From Porticoccaceae bacterium (lineage in GTDB: Bacteria > Pseudomonadota > Gammaproteobacteria > Pseudomonadales > Porticoccaceae), in NCBI GenBank assembly GCA_018663035.1, contig JABJEX010000047.1, forward strand, positions 1 through 64,000: a stretch of 64,000 nucleotides of DNA, given 5' to 3'. A program made the translations under genes and the position numbers. The notes beneath the pieces were generated by a model, which saw only the letters and a program-made list of their open reading frames with translations, had not been told where the DNA came from and made no database searches. Below are positions 1,183 to 8,918 of the stretch, one piece after another. How positions within the stretch are numbered: the stretch's first letter is position 1; every line of letters begins with the position of its first letter.

Positions 1183-1737
1183 ATGCATATTCCTGTTAAA
1201 CCACTAAAACAATACCCCTTCTGGCTGAGGCCATTTTTTTGGAATCAACAGCGTAAATATGGCGCTGTCCTTGACCCGGGATTGCTCTGGGGTCGAGTAC
1301 CAACACTGTTTGCTGCAGTGGCGCTGCTGTACGGCGCAATTGATCGTAAAAGATCCCCTATCGATCAGGTCCTTCGGTCCTTGGTAACAGTGCGAGTTTC
1401 ACAGATTAACTGGTGTCATTTCTGTGTCGATATAAATTCTGCTACCTTGGCCGCCAGAGCCGGCTCAATGGAAAAGGTAGAGCAGCTTGAGCACTGGCGC
1501 GAATCTGCAGTCTATACGGATAAAGAACGCGTCGCCCTGGAGTATGCAGAGGCCGTTACCTATTCCCATCAACAGATCAGCGCAGACTTGATGGCAAGGC
1601 TGAAAACATTTTTTAGCGATGATGCTCTGGTCGACCTCACTGGCCTCATTGCTTTTCAAAATCTCTCCAGCAAATTTAATGCAGCCTTAGATGTCCCAGC
1701 TCAGGGCTTTTGTCAGCTGGGTGAGCAGCCTAAATAA
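1183..1737 (+). CDS. Carboxymuconolactone decarboxylase / AhpD-like family protein
   Basis: SQINWCHFCVDINSA CxxC-type motif and helical CMD-like context. Confidence 0.8.
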   Translation: MHIPVKPLKQYPFWLRPFFWNQQRKYGAVLDPGLLWGRVPTLFAAVALLYGAIDRKRSPIDQVLRSLVTVRVSQINWCHFCVDINSATLAARAGSMEKVEQLEHWRESAVYTDKERVALEYAEAVTYSHQQISADLMARLKTFFSDDALVDLTGLIAFQNLSSKFNAALDVPAQGFCQLGEQPK

Positions 1738-1828
1738 GCACGCATAATAGGGTACTAAGTGATGCTATTGGCTCCACACAGAATAACGAGAGGGTTATTT
1801 TAATGTTCGTTTTTGCCGCGCTCGATGG

Positions 1829-2125
1829 TTGCCTGTGAGTATTGATGTGCATAATCTGGTTGATCCAGACATTAGCTGTGCCAGCTGCAAAGCGGACTGT
1901 TGCAAGCTGGAGGTTATGCTTATCACTGATACCGGTGTGCCAAGAGAATACATCAGTGAGGATCGCTGGGGTGCTGAAACCATGACGCGTCTCGCCGACG
2001 GATGGTGTGCAGCGTTGGATCGCAGCACCATGATGTGCCGGATTTATGAGCATCGCCCCTGGATCTGCAGGGAGTTTGAGATGGGAGCCCAGGACTGTCA
2101 GGTCGAGCGCTTAAAAGCGGACTAA
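1829..2125 (+). CDS. YkgJ family cysteine-cluster protein
   Basis: Cys-rich pattern CASCKADCCKLE...CAALD...MCRIYEHRPWICREFEMG; start is TTG 1829 or GTG 1835. Confidence 0.85.
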   Translation: MPVSIDVHNLVDPDISCASCKADCCKLEVMLITDTGVPREYISEDRWGAETMTRLADGWCAALDRSTMMCRIYEHRPWICREFEMGAQDCQVERLKAD

Positions 2126-2840: not shown

Positions 2841-3701
2841 ATGGATTTGTTAGATTCAAAAAACGTTAATAATCGCGTTAAAAAACGCAGCATTGCCATC
2901 GCCTGCTTGGTTCATCTCTATCTAATTTTGGGTACTCTCGGCATTTGGATCATTGTCCTTGCAGTATTTGGGTTGATTACTGCAACCCTCCTGCGCAACG
3001 ATATTGAAGAGGCAGTCGCCAGCGTAAAAAATTTTAATAAGGCGCAGCCCTCCAAATATTACGGACAGGTTTACACCCATATCCAACATGTGTTCCATCA
3101 TCCGATCAATATCGAGACGGATATCTTTGCCACCATTGAACAAGAGTTAAAAAATAAAACACCGATCAGTGGGCTGGAATCTATCGCTATAACCGATAGC
3201 GACAAAGACTTATTGGCCCCAGAGCAGCGCAGCTTTTTAAAAGGCCAAGCCAGCCCAACTCAGCGTGGCACAACATTAACCCTGATTTTAAACCAGAGCA
3301 GTTTCGGCGCTATCCGCTCGTTCGAATGGCGCGTGATGGTAGGAGGCTATATAGATAAAAATGCTAAATTCAATTTGATAGCTTACTCGCCGTTTACTCT
3401 GCTTTTTTGGATTGGCGCTTACTTAAAGCGCGAGACCAATCTTTTGAATAAAGTGAGAACCGTCTACCCCAGCGCATATAACGATATTGATATCTCAACT
3501 CAGGTGCGTTCAATGAGCGAAACCGTATTCGATGCGATGGTCTTAGCACTGGATAAAAACGGCATAGATACCAGCGATCTAAAAGCACAGAAGCTACAAT
3601 CCATGAATATTAATATTACTGGTGGCAAGGTAAATATGGGCAATGTGGTACAGGGCGCCATGAATAAAATAACCGGTGCGGTGAAAGGTGCTAAGGCATG
3701 A
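2841..3701 (+). CDS. Hypothetical membrane protein with C-terminal NINITGG-x4-GNVVQG motif
   Basis: 286-aa ORF with RBS-like aagggagc; N-terminal hydrophobic segments; Gly/Asn-rich C-terminal motif. Confidence 0.8.
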   Translation: MDLLDSKNVNNRVKKRSIAIACLVHLYLILGTLGIWIIVLAVFGLITATLLRNDIEEAVASVKNFNKAQPSKYYGQVYTHIQHVFHHPINIETDIFATIEQELKNKTPISGLESIAITDSDKDLLAPEQRSFLKGQASPTQRGTTLTLILNQSSFGAIRSFEWRVMVGGYIDKNAKFNLIAYSPFTLLFWIGAYLKRETNLLNKVRTVYPSAYNDIDISTQVRSMSETVFDAMVLALDKNGIDTSDLKAQKLQSMNINITGGKVNMGNVVQGAMNKITGAVKGAKA

Positions 3702-4027
3702 GCAAGCCCGGAATCAATATTAATATTACTGGTGGCCGCGCGACTCTGGGTAACATCAACCAAGGCGACAACAACCATTTAGAGGCCAATCAGAGCCTTT
3801 GCTTTGCGGCCGCTGATTTGGAGCAGTTCAACAGAGCCATAGAAGCCCTAGCCAGTCAAAGCAACAGCGTCTCAGAGGAAGATTACCTTGCACTCAGGAC
3901 AACGGTAGAAAATCTTGCACAGCAACCGCCAAACACTGATATTGTAGAGCGGCTAAAAGATCTCTACCAAAAATACGCCTGGGCCGCGGCTCCATTGCGC
4001 AGATTGTTAGGGCTATTGGTCGCCTAG
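3698..4027 (+). CDS. Hypothetical protein with N-terminal NINITGG-x4-GNINQG motif
   Basis: ATG overlaps upstream stop (ATGA, translational coupling); 21-nt direct repeat shared with the upstream gene. Confidence 0.8.
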   Translation: MSKPGININITGGRATLGNINQGDNNHLEANQSLCFAAADLEQFNRAIEALASQSNSVSEEDYLALRTTVENLAQQPPNTDIVERLKDLYQKYAWAAAPLRRLLGLLVA

Positions 4028-4168: not shown

Positions 4169-4336
4169 ATGTCCACAGCCTATGGTCTGGTTATTGTAAA
4201 CATTGCTTGTATCTTTGCCTGCTATCTTATCGCTCAAGAGCGTCGCGCAGATGCCCGCTTCTGGGGTTGGATGGGGGCTCTACTCGGCCCACTTGCACTG
4301 CCCTTTGTATTCTTCGCTCAACCAAAAGATAGATAA
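4169..4336 (+). CDS. Small (55 aa) membrane protein, unknown function
   Basis: Read directly: MSTAYGLVIVNIACIFACYLIAQERRADARFWGWMGALLGPLALPFVFFAQPKDR*; gaggag RBS at 4155-4160; stop 1 nt before the next CDS; below ORF-track cutoff. Confidence 0.75.
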   Translation: MSTAYGLVIVNIACIFACYLIAQERRADARFWGWMGALLGPLALPFVFFAQPKDR

Positions 4337-4337
4337 T

Positions 4338-4739
4338 ATGTCTGGTGAAACCGATTTAAAGAGACTTCTCAATGGGCTGTCGCCGCTCATTCTAGAGCCC
4401 TGCTACGTATTTTGTACTCTTGCCAATGGGTGCTACGGAGACTATTCCGAGGCTAAGCCAATCGCCAGTTTTCAGGAGCCAGAGGGTTTGACTCTGGTGC
4501 TAACCAAGGAAAATGCCGATACCTATGGATTGAGTTATGAAGGCCTGTTCCGCTGCATCAGCTTGCAGGTTCACTCCAGCCTTGAAGCTGTGGGGCTAAC
4601 GGCCATCATTTCAGGCAAGCTGGCGTCCTATGATATTAGCGCCAACGTGATCGCGGGTTTCTACCACGACCACGTTTTTGTGCCTGAGCAAGATGCCGAA
4701 CAGGCCCTAGAGCTATTGAATAACCTCAGTAAGCTCTAA
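4338..4739 (+). CDS. ACT domain-containing protein
   Basis: Internal ATG 4338 of ORF 4203-4739: MSGETDLKRLLNGLSPLILEPCYVFCTL...GLTAIISGKLASYDISANVIAGFYHDHVFVP, typical of ACT_7/DUF2241-type proteins. Confidence 0.85.
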   Translation: MSGETDLKRLLNGLSPLILEPCYVFCTLANGCYGDYSEAKPIASFQEPEGLTLVLTKENADTYGLSYEGLFRCISLQVHSSLEAVGLTAIISGKLASYDISANVIAGFYHDHVFVPEQDAEQALELLNNLSKL

Positions 4740-4744
4740 ATATT

Positions 4745-6025
4745 CTAGCTACCGAATACCCCTTTAAAGAAAAAGAAGAACAGAATAGACAGGGCTGCTC
4801 CAGCGGGCAGAGTTACTACCCATGAAAGGAAGATAGAGCCGACCATTCGCAGGTTTAGTGCGCCTATACCTCTAGCCATACCTACACCCAGAACAGCACC
4901 AACCAGAGTATGGGTGGTAGAGATCGGCAAACCAGTACCAGATGCCAAAACAACCGTCGCAGCAGCGCCTAATTCAGCAGCAAAGCCACGGCTTGGCGTG
5001 AGCTCAGTAATCTTGCGTCCAATGGTACCCATTACTTTAAAGCCGTAGGTGGCAAGGCCCACTACGATACCACCACCACCAAGCAACAGAATCCAGCTGG
5101 GCATGGAGCTTTTTGCGGCAATATCGCCACCTGCATTCACTACATTGACAACCGCAGCCAGAGGGCCAACGGCGTTAGCCACGTCGTTAGAGCCGTGTGC
5201 AAAGGCCATGCTACAGGCCGTGAAAATCATGAGTACCGCAAACACCTTTTCAACATTGTAGAAACGATTGCCTTCTTCTTTGGATTCGTCCCGTTCAACT
5301 TTGCTTAATAGATAGGTACCAATAATAGTGACCAAAATACCGAAACCAACAGCGACCAGGGCGTTTTCACCAAAGGACAACTTGATGCCGATATCTTTAA
5401 AAACGTGTTTCAGACCTTTAAGCAGGGTCACCATAGCCATCAAGAAACCCACGGCGAACATGTACATGGGCGCGTACTTTTTTGCACGCTCAAAGGGATT
5501 GTCTTGGATAAGAATCAGCCGCTGAACGCTTCTGAAAATAGCGAAGGAGATAGTGCCGGCCATAACAGGTGAAACCACCCAGCTGGCTACAATAGTGCTG
5601 ACCTTGCTCCAGTTAACCGCATCGTAAGAAACGCCAACAGCCGCAAACCCAACAATCGCTCCGACAATAGAGTGTGTCGTAGAGACCGGCCAGCCCATAA
5701 AACTAGCTATCGCCAGCCAGGTACCAGCAGCCAAAAGGGCCGACAACATTCCGAATACCAGTAGGTCGGGCTGATTAGTAAACACACCGGAGTCGACTAT
5801 GCCTTTGCGGATGGTAGAGGTCACCTCGCCACCCGCCAAATAGGCTCCTGCAAACTCAAAGACCATCGCGATCAATATTGCCTGCTTGATGGTGAGCGCT
5901 TTCGAGCCTACCGAGGTACCCATTGCATTAGCAACATCATTGGCGCCGACACCCCAAGCCATAAAGAAGCCAAACATTGCGGCCATAATGATGAGAATGG
6001 TGCCGTGTTCAGTAAATAGTTCCAT
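4745..6025 (-). CDS. pit: Inorganic phosphate transporter, PiT family
   Basis: GANDVANAMGTSVGSKALT and HGSNDVANAVGPLAAV repeats; many TM segments. Confidence 0.93.
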   Translation of the reverse strand: MELFTEHGTILIIMAAMFGFFMAWGVGANDVANAMGTSVGSKALTIKQAILIAMVFEFAGAYLAGGEVTSTIRKGIVDSGVFTNQPDLLVFGMLSALLAAGTWLAIASFMGWPVSTTHSIVGAIVGFAAVGVSYDAVNWSKVSTIVASWVVSPVMAGTISFAIFRSVQRLILIQDNPFERAKKYAPMYMFAVGFLMAMVTLLKGLKHVFKDIGIKLSFGENALVAVGFGILVTIIGTYLLSKVERDESKEEGNRFYNVEKVFAVLMIFTACSMAFAHGSNDVANAVGPLAAVVNVVNAGGDIAAKSSMPSWILLLGGGGIVVGLATYGFKVMGTIGRKITELTPSRGFAAELGAAATVVLASGTGLPISTTHTLVGAVLGVGMARGIGALNLRMVGSIFLSWVVTLPAGAALSILFFFFFKGVFGS

Positions 6026-6046: not shown

Positions 6047-6727
6047 TTATTTTGCTAGGAGGAGTTCGAGGCTATTGCCCACGCGTTCTGCAGTATCTGC
6101 AATGGCACCTATATTATCTATGGTGCTGTACAGGAACATAACGTCCACAGGGGGCATATCTGCTTCAAGTTTAAAGAGTCGATGGCGGAGCTTGAGCTCT
6201 TTCTTGTCGACTTTCTGTTCCTGTGCATCCAGCTCTCGGATCAGTTTTTTGACGAATTTGACTTCCTGCCCGGTAAAGCCTGTTTCTAGCAGTTCATCGA
6301 GCTCATTGATGGCTGTCAGTGCTTTTTGGCAGGTTTCGATAGCACTCTGCACAAAACCCATAAAATCGGTTTGCAGTGCGGTGGGTATATCCATTTCGCG
6401 TCCCAGCACGATGCCGCAAACATCCTTAGTGGTGTTAGCAATCTCATCTTGCTGCGCCAAGATGCTCAGCAGATCGCCTCGTGGGACGGGCATAAAGAGG
6501 CTGTTTGGCATATTGAGCCGGAAGTCCTTTTTTAGCTCATCGGCCTTATTTTCGTACTCAACAATTTGATTAAAGATGTTGGTAGCCTGAGGCCAATTAT
6601 CGGCAATGGCTGCCTCAAAGAAGGGCTCTAGCTGGGTAGCGCATCTGACTACTAGGGACATGTGGTCCTGTAGTGGAAGGATAGGAGACTTGCCAAACAG
6701 GTTTGAAATTGGATTACTAAACGCCAT
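6047..6727 (-). CDS. DUF47/TIGR00153 family PhoU-like protein (Pit accessory)
   Basis: Similar to PhoU-like DUF47 proteins; directly upstream of pit on the same strand. Confidence 0.9.
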   Translation of the reverse strand: MAFSNPISNLFGKSPILPLQDHMSLVVRCATQLEPFFEAAIADNWPQATNIFNQIVEYENKADELKKDFRLNMPNSLFMPVPRGDLLSILAQQDEIANTTKDVCGIVLGREMDIPTALQTDFMGFVQSAIETCQKALTAINELDELLETGFTGQEVKFVKKLIRELDAQEQKVDKKELKLRHRLFKLEADMPPVDVMFLYSTIDNIGAIADTAERVGNSLELLLAK

Positions 6728-6806
6728 ATGCTTACCCTCTAATTTGGGTTTCAGTATAGGGCCTTGTCATAAAAATGAAATATTAATATCACTTATATTT
6801 TTGCTG

Positions 6807-8918
6807 TTAAGCTTGGGCGTATTGCTCGGCATGACCAAGCCATCTCGCGATAAGTGGGTCGACCTTTTGTTGGTGGTTAAGCAGGAGTTTTTCAGCGGCT
6901 CGCTTCACCTGTGGCAGCATATGAGCATCACGCTGTAGATCGGCAATATGTAGCTGCATATCGCCGGTCTGCCTAGTGCCTAGCACCTCGCCTGGCCCCC
7001 TGATTTCGAGGTCTTTTTCGGCAATCTTAAAGCCATCAGTAGTTTCGCGCATAATTTTGAGGCGTGCACTGCCATTATTGGAAATAGGAGCGCTATACAG
7101 TAGAACACAGTGGCTGCTCTGTGAGCCTCGACCTACTCGGCCGCGCAACTGATGCAGTTGAGAGAGCCCCAAACGCTCTGCATTTTCGATAATCATCAGG
7201 CTAGCATTGGGCACATCGACGCCTACCTCTATCACTGTGGTCGCTACCAGCAAATTAATGTCACCCGACTTAAATGCGTTCATCACCTCAAGCTTTTCTC
7301 TCGGCTTAAGTCGGCCATGCACCAAACCAATACTCAATTCAGGCAACATTAGCTGTAGCTCGCTGGCGGTTACCTCTGCGGCCTGAGCTTCCAGTACATC
7401 TGATTCTTCAATGAGCGTACAGACCCAATAGGCTTGACGGCCAACAGTGCATGAGGCTCGCACCCGATCTATGACGTCGTTGCGTCGTAGGTTGTTTAAC
7501 ACGACAGTTTCCACCGGGGTTCGGCCTGGGGGCAGTTCGTCTATAACCGAGCAATCTAGATCAGCATAGGCACTCATGGCCAGAGTGCGAGGAATTGGGG
7601 TTGCCGTCATAATTAGCTGATGAGGAGCAGGCCCCATGGCAACAGGGTTATCCGGATTAAAGCCTTTATTGCGCAGCGCCAGACGTTGGTGCACGCCAAA
7701 ACGATGCTGTTCGTCAATAATACTAAGCCCCAAATCATGAAAGCTTACAGCCTCCTGAAACAGAGCATGTGTGCCGATAACCATCTGCGCGGAGCCATCG
7801 ACCATGGCTTCAAGCTGCATTTCTCTGGCCTTGCCTTTAACTTTGCCGGTTAGAAAGGCAACGCGGATGCCTAGGGGGCGAAGCCACTGGTCAAAATTAA
7901 TACGGTGCTGCTCAGCTAAAATTTCAGTGGGCGCCATCAAAACGGCCTGTTTGCCATTGGCTATGGCCTGCACGGCGGCCATGGCTGCTACGACCGTCTT
8001 GCCCGAACCCACATCTCCTTGAACAAGGCGAAGCATGGGTATGGCGGTACTTATATCCTGATTAATTTCGTCTACTACTCTCAGCTGGGCTGCGGTGAGC
8101 GTAAAGGGCAGCTGTTGTAAAAATTTGTCTTGCGCCGTTTTATCTCGCATCAGCACGGGCGCTTGCTGCTGCTGTACTTTTTGGCGTAGACGAAGCAGGC
8201 TTAGGTTATGTGCTATTAACTCTTCAGCGGCCAGTCGTTGCTGCGCTGGGTGTTCGCCCTCGGATAACAGATGCAGCGCAGTCCCGGGTGGCGGGTTGTG
8301 GAGTAGGCGCAATGCGTTATCTAGAGAGTAGCTGAGTTCATGCCCTAACTCTGTTTTTACCTCATTAGGGAGCAGTTCCGCAATCTGATACTCCTGAAGC
8401 TGTTTTAGTGCCTGAGCGCAGAGATCGCGAATCCGAGTTTGAGTAATTCCCTCAGTGGCCGGATATATAGGTGTTAATGTCTCTTCTAGTTGCGCCGGAT
8501 TAGCGCTGTCTAGATACTGATATTCGGGATGGTAGAGTTCGACACCAGATTTTCCTCGCCGCACTTCGCCGAAACAACGCAGGCGAGTACCTGGTTTTAG
8601 GCGCTCCTGTTGAGCTCGATTAAAATGAAAGAATCGCAAAGTAACCACGCCGGTTGAATCTTGGATTCTGCACACTAGACTGCGACGCCGACCAAAAACC
8701 ACATCGCTCGCTCGAATCTCGCCCTCAATAACTACGTCAGACATAGGCTGAATGCCGCCAATGGGGGTGACCTGAGTGCGATCTATGTAGCGCAGCGGGA
8801 GGTGAAAAAGCAGATCTTGCACGCTGTAAAGGCCAAGTTTCTTTAGTTTGGATGCAAGCTGAGGCCCCACCCCATGCAGACTGGTAACGCTTATTTTATC
8901 AAGAGTTTGCGGCGCCAT
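6807..8918 (-). CDS. recG: ATP-dependent DNA helicase RecG
   Basis: Full-length; Walker A QGDVGSGKTVVAA, DEQHRFGVHQR, TATPIPRTLAM, QLRGRVGRG. Confidence 0.97.
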   Translation of the reverse strand: MAPQTLDKISVTSLHGVGPQLASKLKKLGLYSVQDLLFHLPLRYIDRTQVTPIGGIQPMSDVVIEGEIRASDVVFGRRRSLVCRIQDSTGVVTLRFFHFNRAQQERLKPGTRLRCFGEVRRGKSGVELYHPEYQYLDSANPAQLEETLTPIYPATEGITQTRIRDLCAQALKQLQEYQIAELLPNEVKTELGHELSYSLDNALRLLHNPPPGTALHLLSEGEHPAQQRLAAEELIAHNLSLLRLRQKVQQQQAPVLMRDKTAQDKFLQQLPFTLTAAQLRVVDEINQDISTAIPMLRLVQGDVGSGKTVVAAMAAVQAIANGKQAVLMAPTEILAEQHRINFDQWLRPLGIRVAFLTGKVKGKAREMQLEAMVDGSAQMVIGTHALFQEAVSFHDLGLSIIDEQHRFGVHQRLALRNKGFNPDNPVAMGPAPHQLIMTATPIPRTLAMSAYADLDCSVIDELPPGRTPVETVVLNNLRRNDVIDRVRASCTVGRQAYWVCTLIEESDVLEAQAAEVTASELQLMLPELSIGLVHGRLKPREKLEVMNAFKSGDINLLVATTVIEVGVDVPNASLMIIENAERLGLSQLHQLRGRVGRGSQSSHCVLLYSAPISNNGSARLKIMRETTDGFKIAEKDLEIRGPGEVLGTRQTGDMQLHIADLQRDAHMLPQVKRAAEKLLLNHQQKVDPLIARWLGHAEQYAQA

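Follow-up and report, generated by a model that had tools for sequence, protein, structure and literature searches.

A short motif shared by two overlapping genes of the SAR92 clade and its possible role in pairing a membrane protein with a small soluble partner

Among described bacterial systems, the BASS or NLR-Bell pairs come closest to the locus discussed here; their paired proteins share a motif of 20–40 amino acids that is rich in G, N and Q and has a beta-arch-like pattern, and such a motif is proposed to link the membrane effector with its NLR (PMC7889193; PMC8086366). The effector-associated domains (EADs) of bacterial conflict systems are likewise small homotypic modules found in neighboring genes, and these are small domains, nine of twelve of which are alpha-helical (PMC8195603). 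The gene pair analyzed here, called P1 and P2, lies in a window of 64,000 nucleotides (the whole stretch of DNA analyzed, positions 1–64,000 of contig JABJEX010000047.1) from a Porticoccaceae bacterium of the marine SAR92 clade.

P1 (bp 2841–3701, forward strand, from the open reading frame call) encodes a 286 amino acid membrane protein with the motif at its C-terminus, and P2 (bp 3698–4027, forward strand) encodes a 109 amino acid protein with the motif at its N-terminus followed by a helical domain. The P1 stop and P2 start codons overlap in an ATGA on the forward strand (bp 3698–3701) that is identical in all 12 pairs checked and that points to translational coupling of the two genes. P1 ends in ...LQSMNINITGGKVNMGNVVQGAMNKITGAVKGAKA and P2 begins with MSKPGININITGGRATLGNINQGDNNHLE. 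The initial annotation had reported both genes, these peptide ends and an exact 21 bp direct repeat (bp 3606–3626 and 3716–3736, both forward strand), and all of them are present as claimed; the repeat is the sole match of its kind in the window at three or fewer mismatches, and shuffled sequences give an expectation of zero. The shared core it had named, NINITGG, is indeed matched, and the extent of the similarity is here refined to about 23 amino acids, MNINITGGKVNMGNVVQGAMNKI in P1 (amino acids 255–277, bp 3603–3671, forward strand) and ININITGGRATLGNINQGDNNHL in P2 (amino acids 6–28, bp 3713–3781, forward strand). The two peptides match with a BLASTP E-value of 3e-6 and a profile-profile E-value of 6e-7 over 24 columns, and the match is not due to chance. 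When P2 was used to search the whole genome, it found itself and the P1 tail alone.

The K/R-rich N-terminus of P1 precedes 35 uncharged hydrophobic residues (amino acids 17–51, bp 2889–2993, forward strand, by hydropathy) that may form a TM hairpin or one long TM segment, and AlphaFold2 (AF2) predicts a helix across residues 6–63. A predicted alpha/beta domain with the order b-a-bbbb follows (AF2 model; amino acids 64–170, bp 3030–3350, forward strand), and then a second hydrophobic segment by hydropathy (amino acids 177–195, bp 3369–3425, forward strand) with K/R residues behind it, after which the model has helices and finally the disordered motif tail (mean pLDDT 60), with pLDDT below 50 in the motif of the monomer. 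A resemblance of P1 to SRPBCC/START-like proteins was considered and is not relied on, the Foldseek matches being weak (TM-scores of about 0.13–0.32). In P2, residues 4–32, which include the motif, are predicted to be disordered in the AF2 monomer (pLDDT below 50), and amino acids 38–107 (bp 3809–4018, forward strand) form a predicted four-helix domain whose 10-residue blocks lie mostly at 74–88; it matches no fold in the PDB or viral libraries at E ≤ 0.001. The positive charges that follow segment 177–195 favor a cytoplasmic P1 tail, and since P1 shows a positive-inside pattern and no signal peptide is obvious in the P2 sequence, both motif copies would provisionally be placed in the cytoplasm. 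If segment 177–195 and the 17–51 hairpin both span the membrane, the P1 motif would lie in the periplasm, apart from P2.

As in the BASS and NLR-Bell pairs, the P1 and P2 genes are adjacent and overlap, and the motif sits C-terminally in a membrane-type protein and N-terminally in the protein encoded next to it. P1/P2 differs from them in having no NLR (NB-ARC or NACHT) or NTPase partner; P1, with its 286 amino acids, hydrophobic N-terminal region and predicted alpha/beta domain, seems unlike the small, helical Bell; and the pair belongs to a gammaproteobacterium of the SAR92 clade, filamentous bacteria being the hosts emphasized in the reviews. The motif is not significantly similar to the BASS3 peptide or to an archaeal BASS3-like peptide, the two BASS-type peptides compared, and against three published signaling-amyloid peptides of confirmed aggregation the best p-value was 0.01, uncorrected and among 28 comparisons. 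The fungal HET-S/NWD2 and sigma-type pairs likewise use motifs at facing ends to couple a membrane-acting protein to its partner, but P1/P2 has neither an NLR nor a HeLo domain, and its similarity to the sigma peptide is at noise level. Like the RHIM-type motifs (including BASS3 and PP), the P1/P2 motif is short, flanked by G and contains Q and beta-branched residues, but neither copy has the [IV]-Q-[IVL]-G tetrad (P1 reads VVQG and P2 INQG) and no Pfam RHIM match occurs at E ≤ 5. P1 and P2 resemble the EAD proteins in being neighboring genes that carry the same small element; what they share, however, is a segment of about 23 amino acids that is predicted to be disordered, and not a homotypic adaptor domain. 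Pairing of the BASS or HET-s kind had been proposed for this locus, and the facing copies, the membrane domain, the overlapping genes, the occurrence in two orders and the motif damage found in both genes of two decaying copies all agree with it; the NLR partner does not appear. The reading we favor is that of a paired, BASS-like assembly motif that has no NLR and lies outside BASS as defined.

Neither P1 nor P2 belongs to a family in Pfam, NCBIfam or PDB, no Pfam signaling-amyloid model including RHIM matches at E ≤ 5, and no toxin family matches the pair; matches to PHROG are weak. No NLR adjoins the pair, the helical 109 amino acid P2 has no NTPase match, the P1 of the window matches none of the curated defense families, and the neighbors of the pair are core-genome genes. 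The P2 proteins of three genomes do match the candidate PADLOC profile PDC-M14B weakly (E-values 6e-4 to 0.01, 13.6–17.4 bits) over the motif and first helices, and most P2 members are unmatched. The hits of this profile in the class include small proteins in which an Asn/Gln-rich N-terminal stretch precedes a helical domain and whose genes lie beside NB-ARC or TPR genes. In genome G576 such a small motif-and-helix gene (locus L089) overlaps and precedes an NB-ARC gene (L092, G576:C111, bp 6323–7836), and the two proteins have in common an N-terminal IHA[GS]RDxF motif (E-value 1e-4); the NB-ARC frame ends beside an IS-like transposase gene, on the far side of which a short remnant of TPR sequence is left. 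A small motif-and-helix protein of G545 adjoins a TPR protein, and in another genome (G584, locus L086, bp 1492–2067, reverse strand) a protein that combines an Asn-rich segment (NITGPNARVNNNSTDNSTN) with a helical C-terminus matches PDC-M14B with an E-value of 1.6e-7 in that one genome, a candidate for a wider class of proteins with an Asn-rich motif and helices. A small motif-and-helix protein thus occurs as partner of an NLR-type protein in Gammaproteobacteria. Profile comparison of P2 with this class was not significant, and a post hoc comparison gave an E-value of 2e-4; homology of P2 to the small partners of NLR/TPR proteins is suggestive only.

Within the genus (SAR92 clade), whole-genome searches of 50 genomes find P1 and P2 together in 15, and the pair is absent from the other 35; no P2 without P1 was found above noise in these 50 genomes, and every genome of the genus with P1 has at least a P2 remnant. 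Among 84,980 species genomes, P1 matches are limited to SAR92/Porticoccaceae-type genomes and P2 has no matches. The inspected loci of the genus are syntenic, with the order YkgJ-like, VF530, [P1-P2], (GNAT), small membrane protein, ACT, PiT, PhoU-like, RecG. In the window, the gene at bp 4169–4336 (a 55 amino acid protein with two hydrophobic segments) and the ACT-domain protein gene at bp 4338–4739 are not considered part of the module because both are also kept in genomes that lack the pair. Directly upstream of P1, four loci of relatives (L051, L053, L054 and L060, at about bp 5440–5940) have a gene for a secreted avidin-like small protein that is absent in the window, and two others (L057 and L059) have one for a different small Zn-ribbon-like membrane protein. 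A scan for promoters and terminators gave no signal above shuffled sequences. P2 diverges faster than P1, with identities to relatives of about 39–59% versus 65–86%; the P1 homologs in the genus span 52–86%, and in the nearest relatives P1 is 86% identical, about the rate of its core neighbors RecG (84–85%) and the PhoU-like protein (85%). A mobile, phage or plasmid origin was considered and set aside; P1 is unmatched in phages, plasmids and viral contigs.

Outside the genus the searches found one homologous pair, in genome G661 from another gammaproteobacterial order, and P1 searches of order, class and phylum samples gave nothing besides it. Its P1 and P2 show 41 and 35% identity, its neighbors differ from those of the genus locus, the ATGA overlap is retained, and both proteins carry the motif (P1 ...MNISVSGGKVNMGNIVQGGMNKI; P2 MTGKGINFNISGGNVNLGPVVQGDSN). 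Motif models built from just one of the two SAR92 genes detect, in G661, the motif in the partner gene with E-values of 8.8e-7 and 8e-5, with G661 excluded from training and best shuffles at 0.2–0.8. In 369 gammaproteobacterial genomes, a motif model whose training set included the G661 sequences scores above about 18 bits on proteins of the pair only, and no third carrier of the motif rises above noise there or in the pair's own genome.

The motif is the best conserved part of both proteins. It is the most conserved 24 amino acid window of P1 (0.89 versus 0.63 elsewhere) and the most conserved 19 amino acid window of P2 (amino acids 6–24; 0.65 versus 0.39 elsewhere). Its pN is 0.020 in P1, about eightfold lower than the 0.170 of residues 1–250, and 0.186 in P2, about twofold lower than the 0.354 of the helical tail, while synonymous differences are 0.57–0.75 across motif and non-motif parts of both genes. 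Because pN is low in the motif and pS is comparable, selection acts on the protein sequence and not on a DNA repeat. The exact 21 bp identity is peculiar to this genome, and relatives encode the peptides with other codons.

It had also been expected that the two copies would co-vary, and this was not borne out: the two copies of one genome resemble each other no more than copies taken from separate genomes do (p = 0.79 for protein and 0.16 for DNA), although the test has low power because the P1 motif is nearly invariant. Gene conversion between the copies was considered as well and left no signal in the same comparisons (DNA p = 0.16, protein p = 0.79). The initial annotation's premise that both partners carry the motif holds throughout the intact pairs, none of which has a one-sided motif.

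Several genomes have decayed or altered copies. In G022, the middle domain of P1 is gone and its motif is lost behind a stop codon, and P2 retains its helical frame and has lost the motif. In G301, the P1 frame is full-length with a changed motif (SGEKVN), and P2 is truncated with its motif destroyed. G028 has stop codons in both genes and a GN to DN change in the P1 motif, and G016 has a frameshift near the start of P2 that may be an assembly error; G301, G028 and G016 are draft genomes. Both genes are open in G237, where the P1 motif carries two substitutions and the P2 motif is retained. At the pair locus of G008 (L079, G008:C26, about bp 669–870) the first P1 residues are fused to a P2 remnant, a scar from both genes that a deletion of the pair has left. 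The damage to the motif in both genes of G022 and G301 is supportive rather than decisive with regard to a joint function, since both genes decay as a whole.

There is, in our judgment, about an even chance that P1 and P2 are a translationally coupled module whose proteins co-assemble through the shared motif of about 23 amino acids. It is the best explanation because the copies face each other, a membrane protein is combined with a soluble partner, the genes overlap and no part of either protein is more constrained than the motif. The significance and cross-recognition of the motif, the co-occurrence of the genes, the distant G661 pair and the joint decay also speak for it. In its favor, too, both copies are predicted to be disordered beside folded parts in the AF2 monomers, and G576 has an NB-ARC protein with a small motif-and-helix neighbor that draws the same PADLOC profile as P2. 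Against it stand the lack of within-genome co-variation (p = 0.79), the lack of significant likeness to the aggregating signaling-amyloid peptides tried, the open genes of G237 despite two substitutions in the P1 motif, a P1 topology that might put its motif in the periplasm, and the weakness of the link from P2 to the small proteins that partner NLRs. In such a module the membrane-anchored P1 and the small soluble helical P2 would bind each other, and probably also themselves, through a Gly/Asn/Gln/Ile-Val-rich motif that would be without order in the monomer and, when assembled, would most likely form stacked beta-arches; P2 would nucleate the motif on the P1 tail, or be nucleated by it, and P1 would thereby be switched or clustered. 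We infer direct contact of P1 with P2 and an assembly of the beta or amyloid type, which would be like the coupling of an NLR to a membrane effector proposed for BASS, here without an NLR or NTPase. As to the direction of signaling, a modest preference, based on position, goes to P1 as the membrane-acting output and P2 as the trigger; by analogy with the G576 pair, P1 might instead be the sensor and P2 the effector.

Other accounts of the shared motif seem less probable. The P1 tail might self-assemble and be membrane-active, with P2 a co-translated, antitoxin-like inhibitor that caps it and does not trigger it. Coupling to a small soluble gene in second place, the joint decay of P1 and P2, and the lack of any genus P1 without at least a P2 remnant agree with this, but no toxin family is matched, in G301 the P1 frame is full-length beside a P2 that is degenerate and truncated (its P1 is also damaged, in a draft), and P2 is broken by a stop in G028 and by a frameshift in G016 (G028 P1 is damaged too, and both are drafts); we regard it as unlikely. 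About as unlikely is that both motifs dock on the same third protein in a house-keeping membrane complex without assembling together. Absent co-variation is what two sites constrained by a common invariant partner would show, and P1 sits at a fixed core locus and diverges about as fast as its core neighbors; yet patchy loss (35 of the 50 genus genomes lack the pair) and different neighbors in the other order argue against a core third partner, and the low-complexity GG/GN/QG pattern is atypical of a docking peptide.

Still less probable is a coupling without amyloid, in which the motifs fold on binding into a beta-strand or glycine-rich interface of a finite heteromer, with no polymer growth or templating. 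The same conservation data would fit it, as would the lack of ordered structure in the AlphaFold models of either copy alone, but the length, placement and Gly/Asn/Gln composition of the motif are like those of signaling amyloids (PMC8086366), a resemblance only. That the repeat is a recent local duplication in one strain without function at the protein level, an outcome that the initial annotation had named as fatal to its proposal, is very improbable: the exact 21 bp identity in this genome fits it, but relatives and a second order keep the peptides with different codons, which also speaks against a repeat maintained at the DNA level, and the distant G661 pair refutes a recent duplication.

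Returning to co-assembly, one form of it would be a signaling amyloid free of NLRs, in which a free-living marine gammaproteobacterium would use a paired prion-like motif to couple a small soluble helical trigger to a membrane protein and which is inherited with the core genome and not as mobile defense; we put this forward tentatively, as possible and somewhat doubtful. The proposal that the pair is a conflict module is not supported, as the locus is a vertically inherited part of the core genome, no defense family is matched above noise and P1 evolves at roughly a housekeeping rate. A conflict role is possible, and the evidence tilts toward a stable chromosomal function because the locus is fixed, P1 changes at about the rate of RecG and its neighbors, and no defense genes are nearby.

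Whether bacteria use signaling amyloids independently of NLRs was named as an open question in a 2021 review (PMC7889193). P1 and P2 are a small and defined candidate for such use, comprising two proteins and one short motif, for which nature offers both intact and decayed versions as well as a homologous pair in a distant genome. If the co-assembly reading is true, motif-paired assembly extends beyond the NLR systems of filamentous bacteria.
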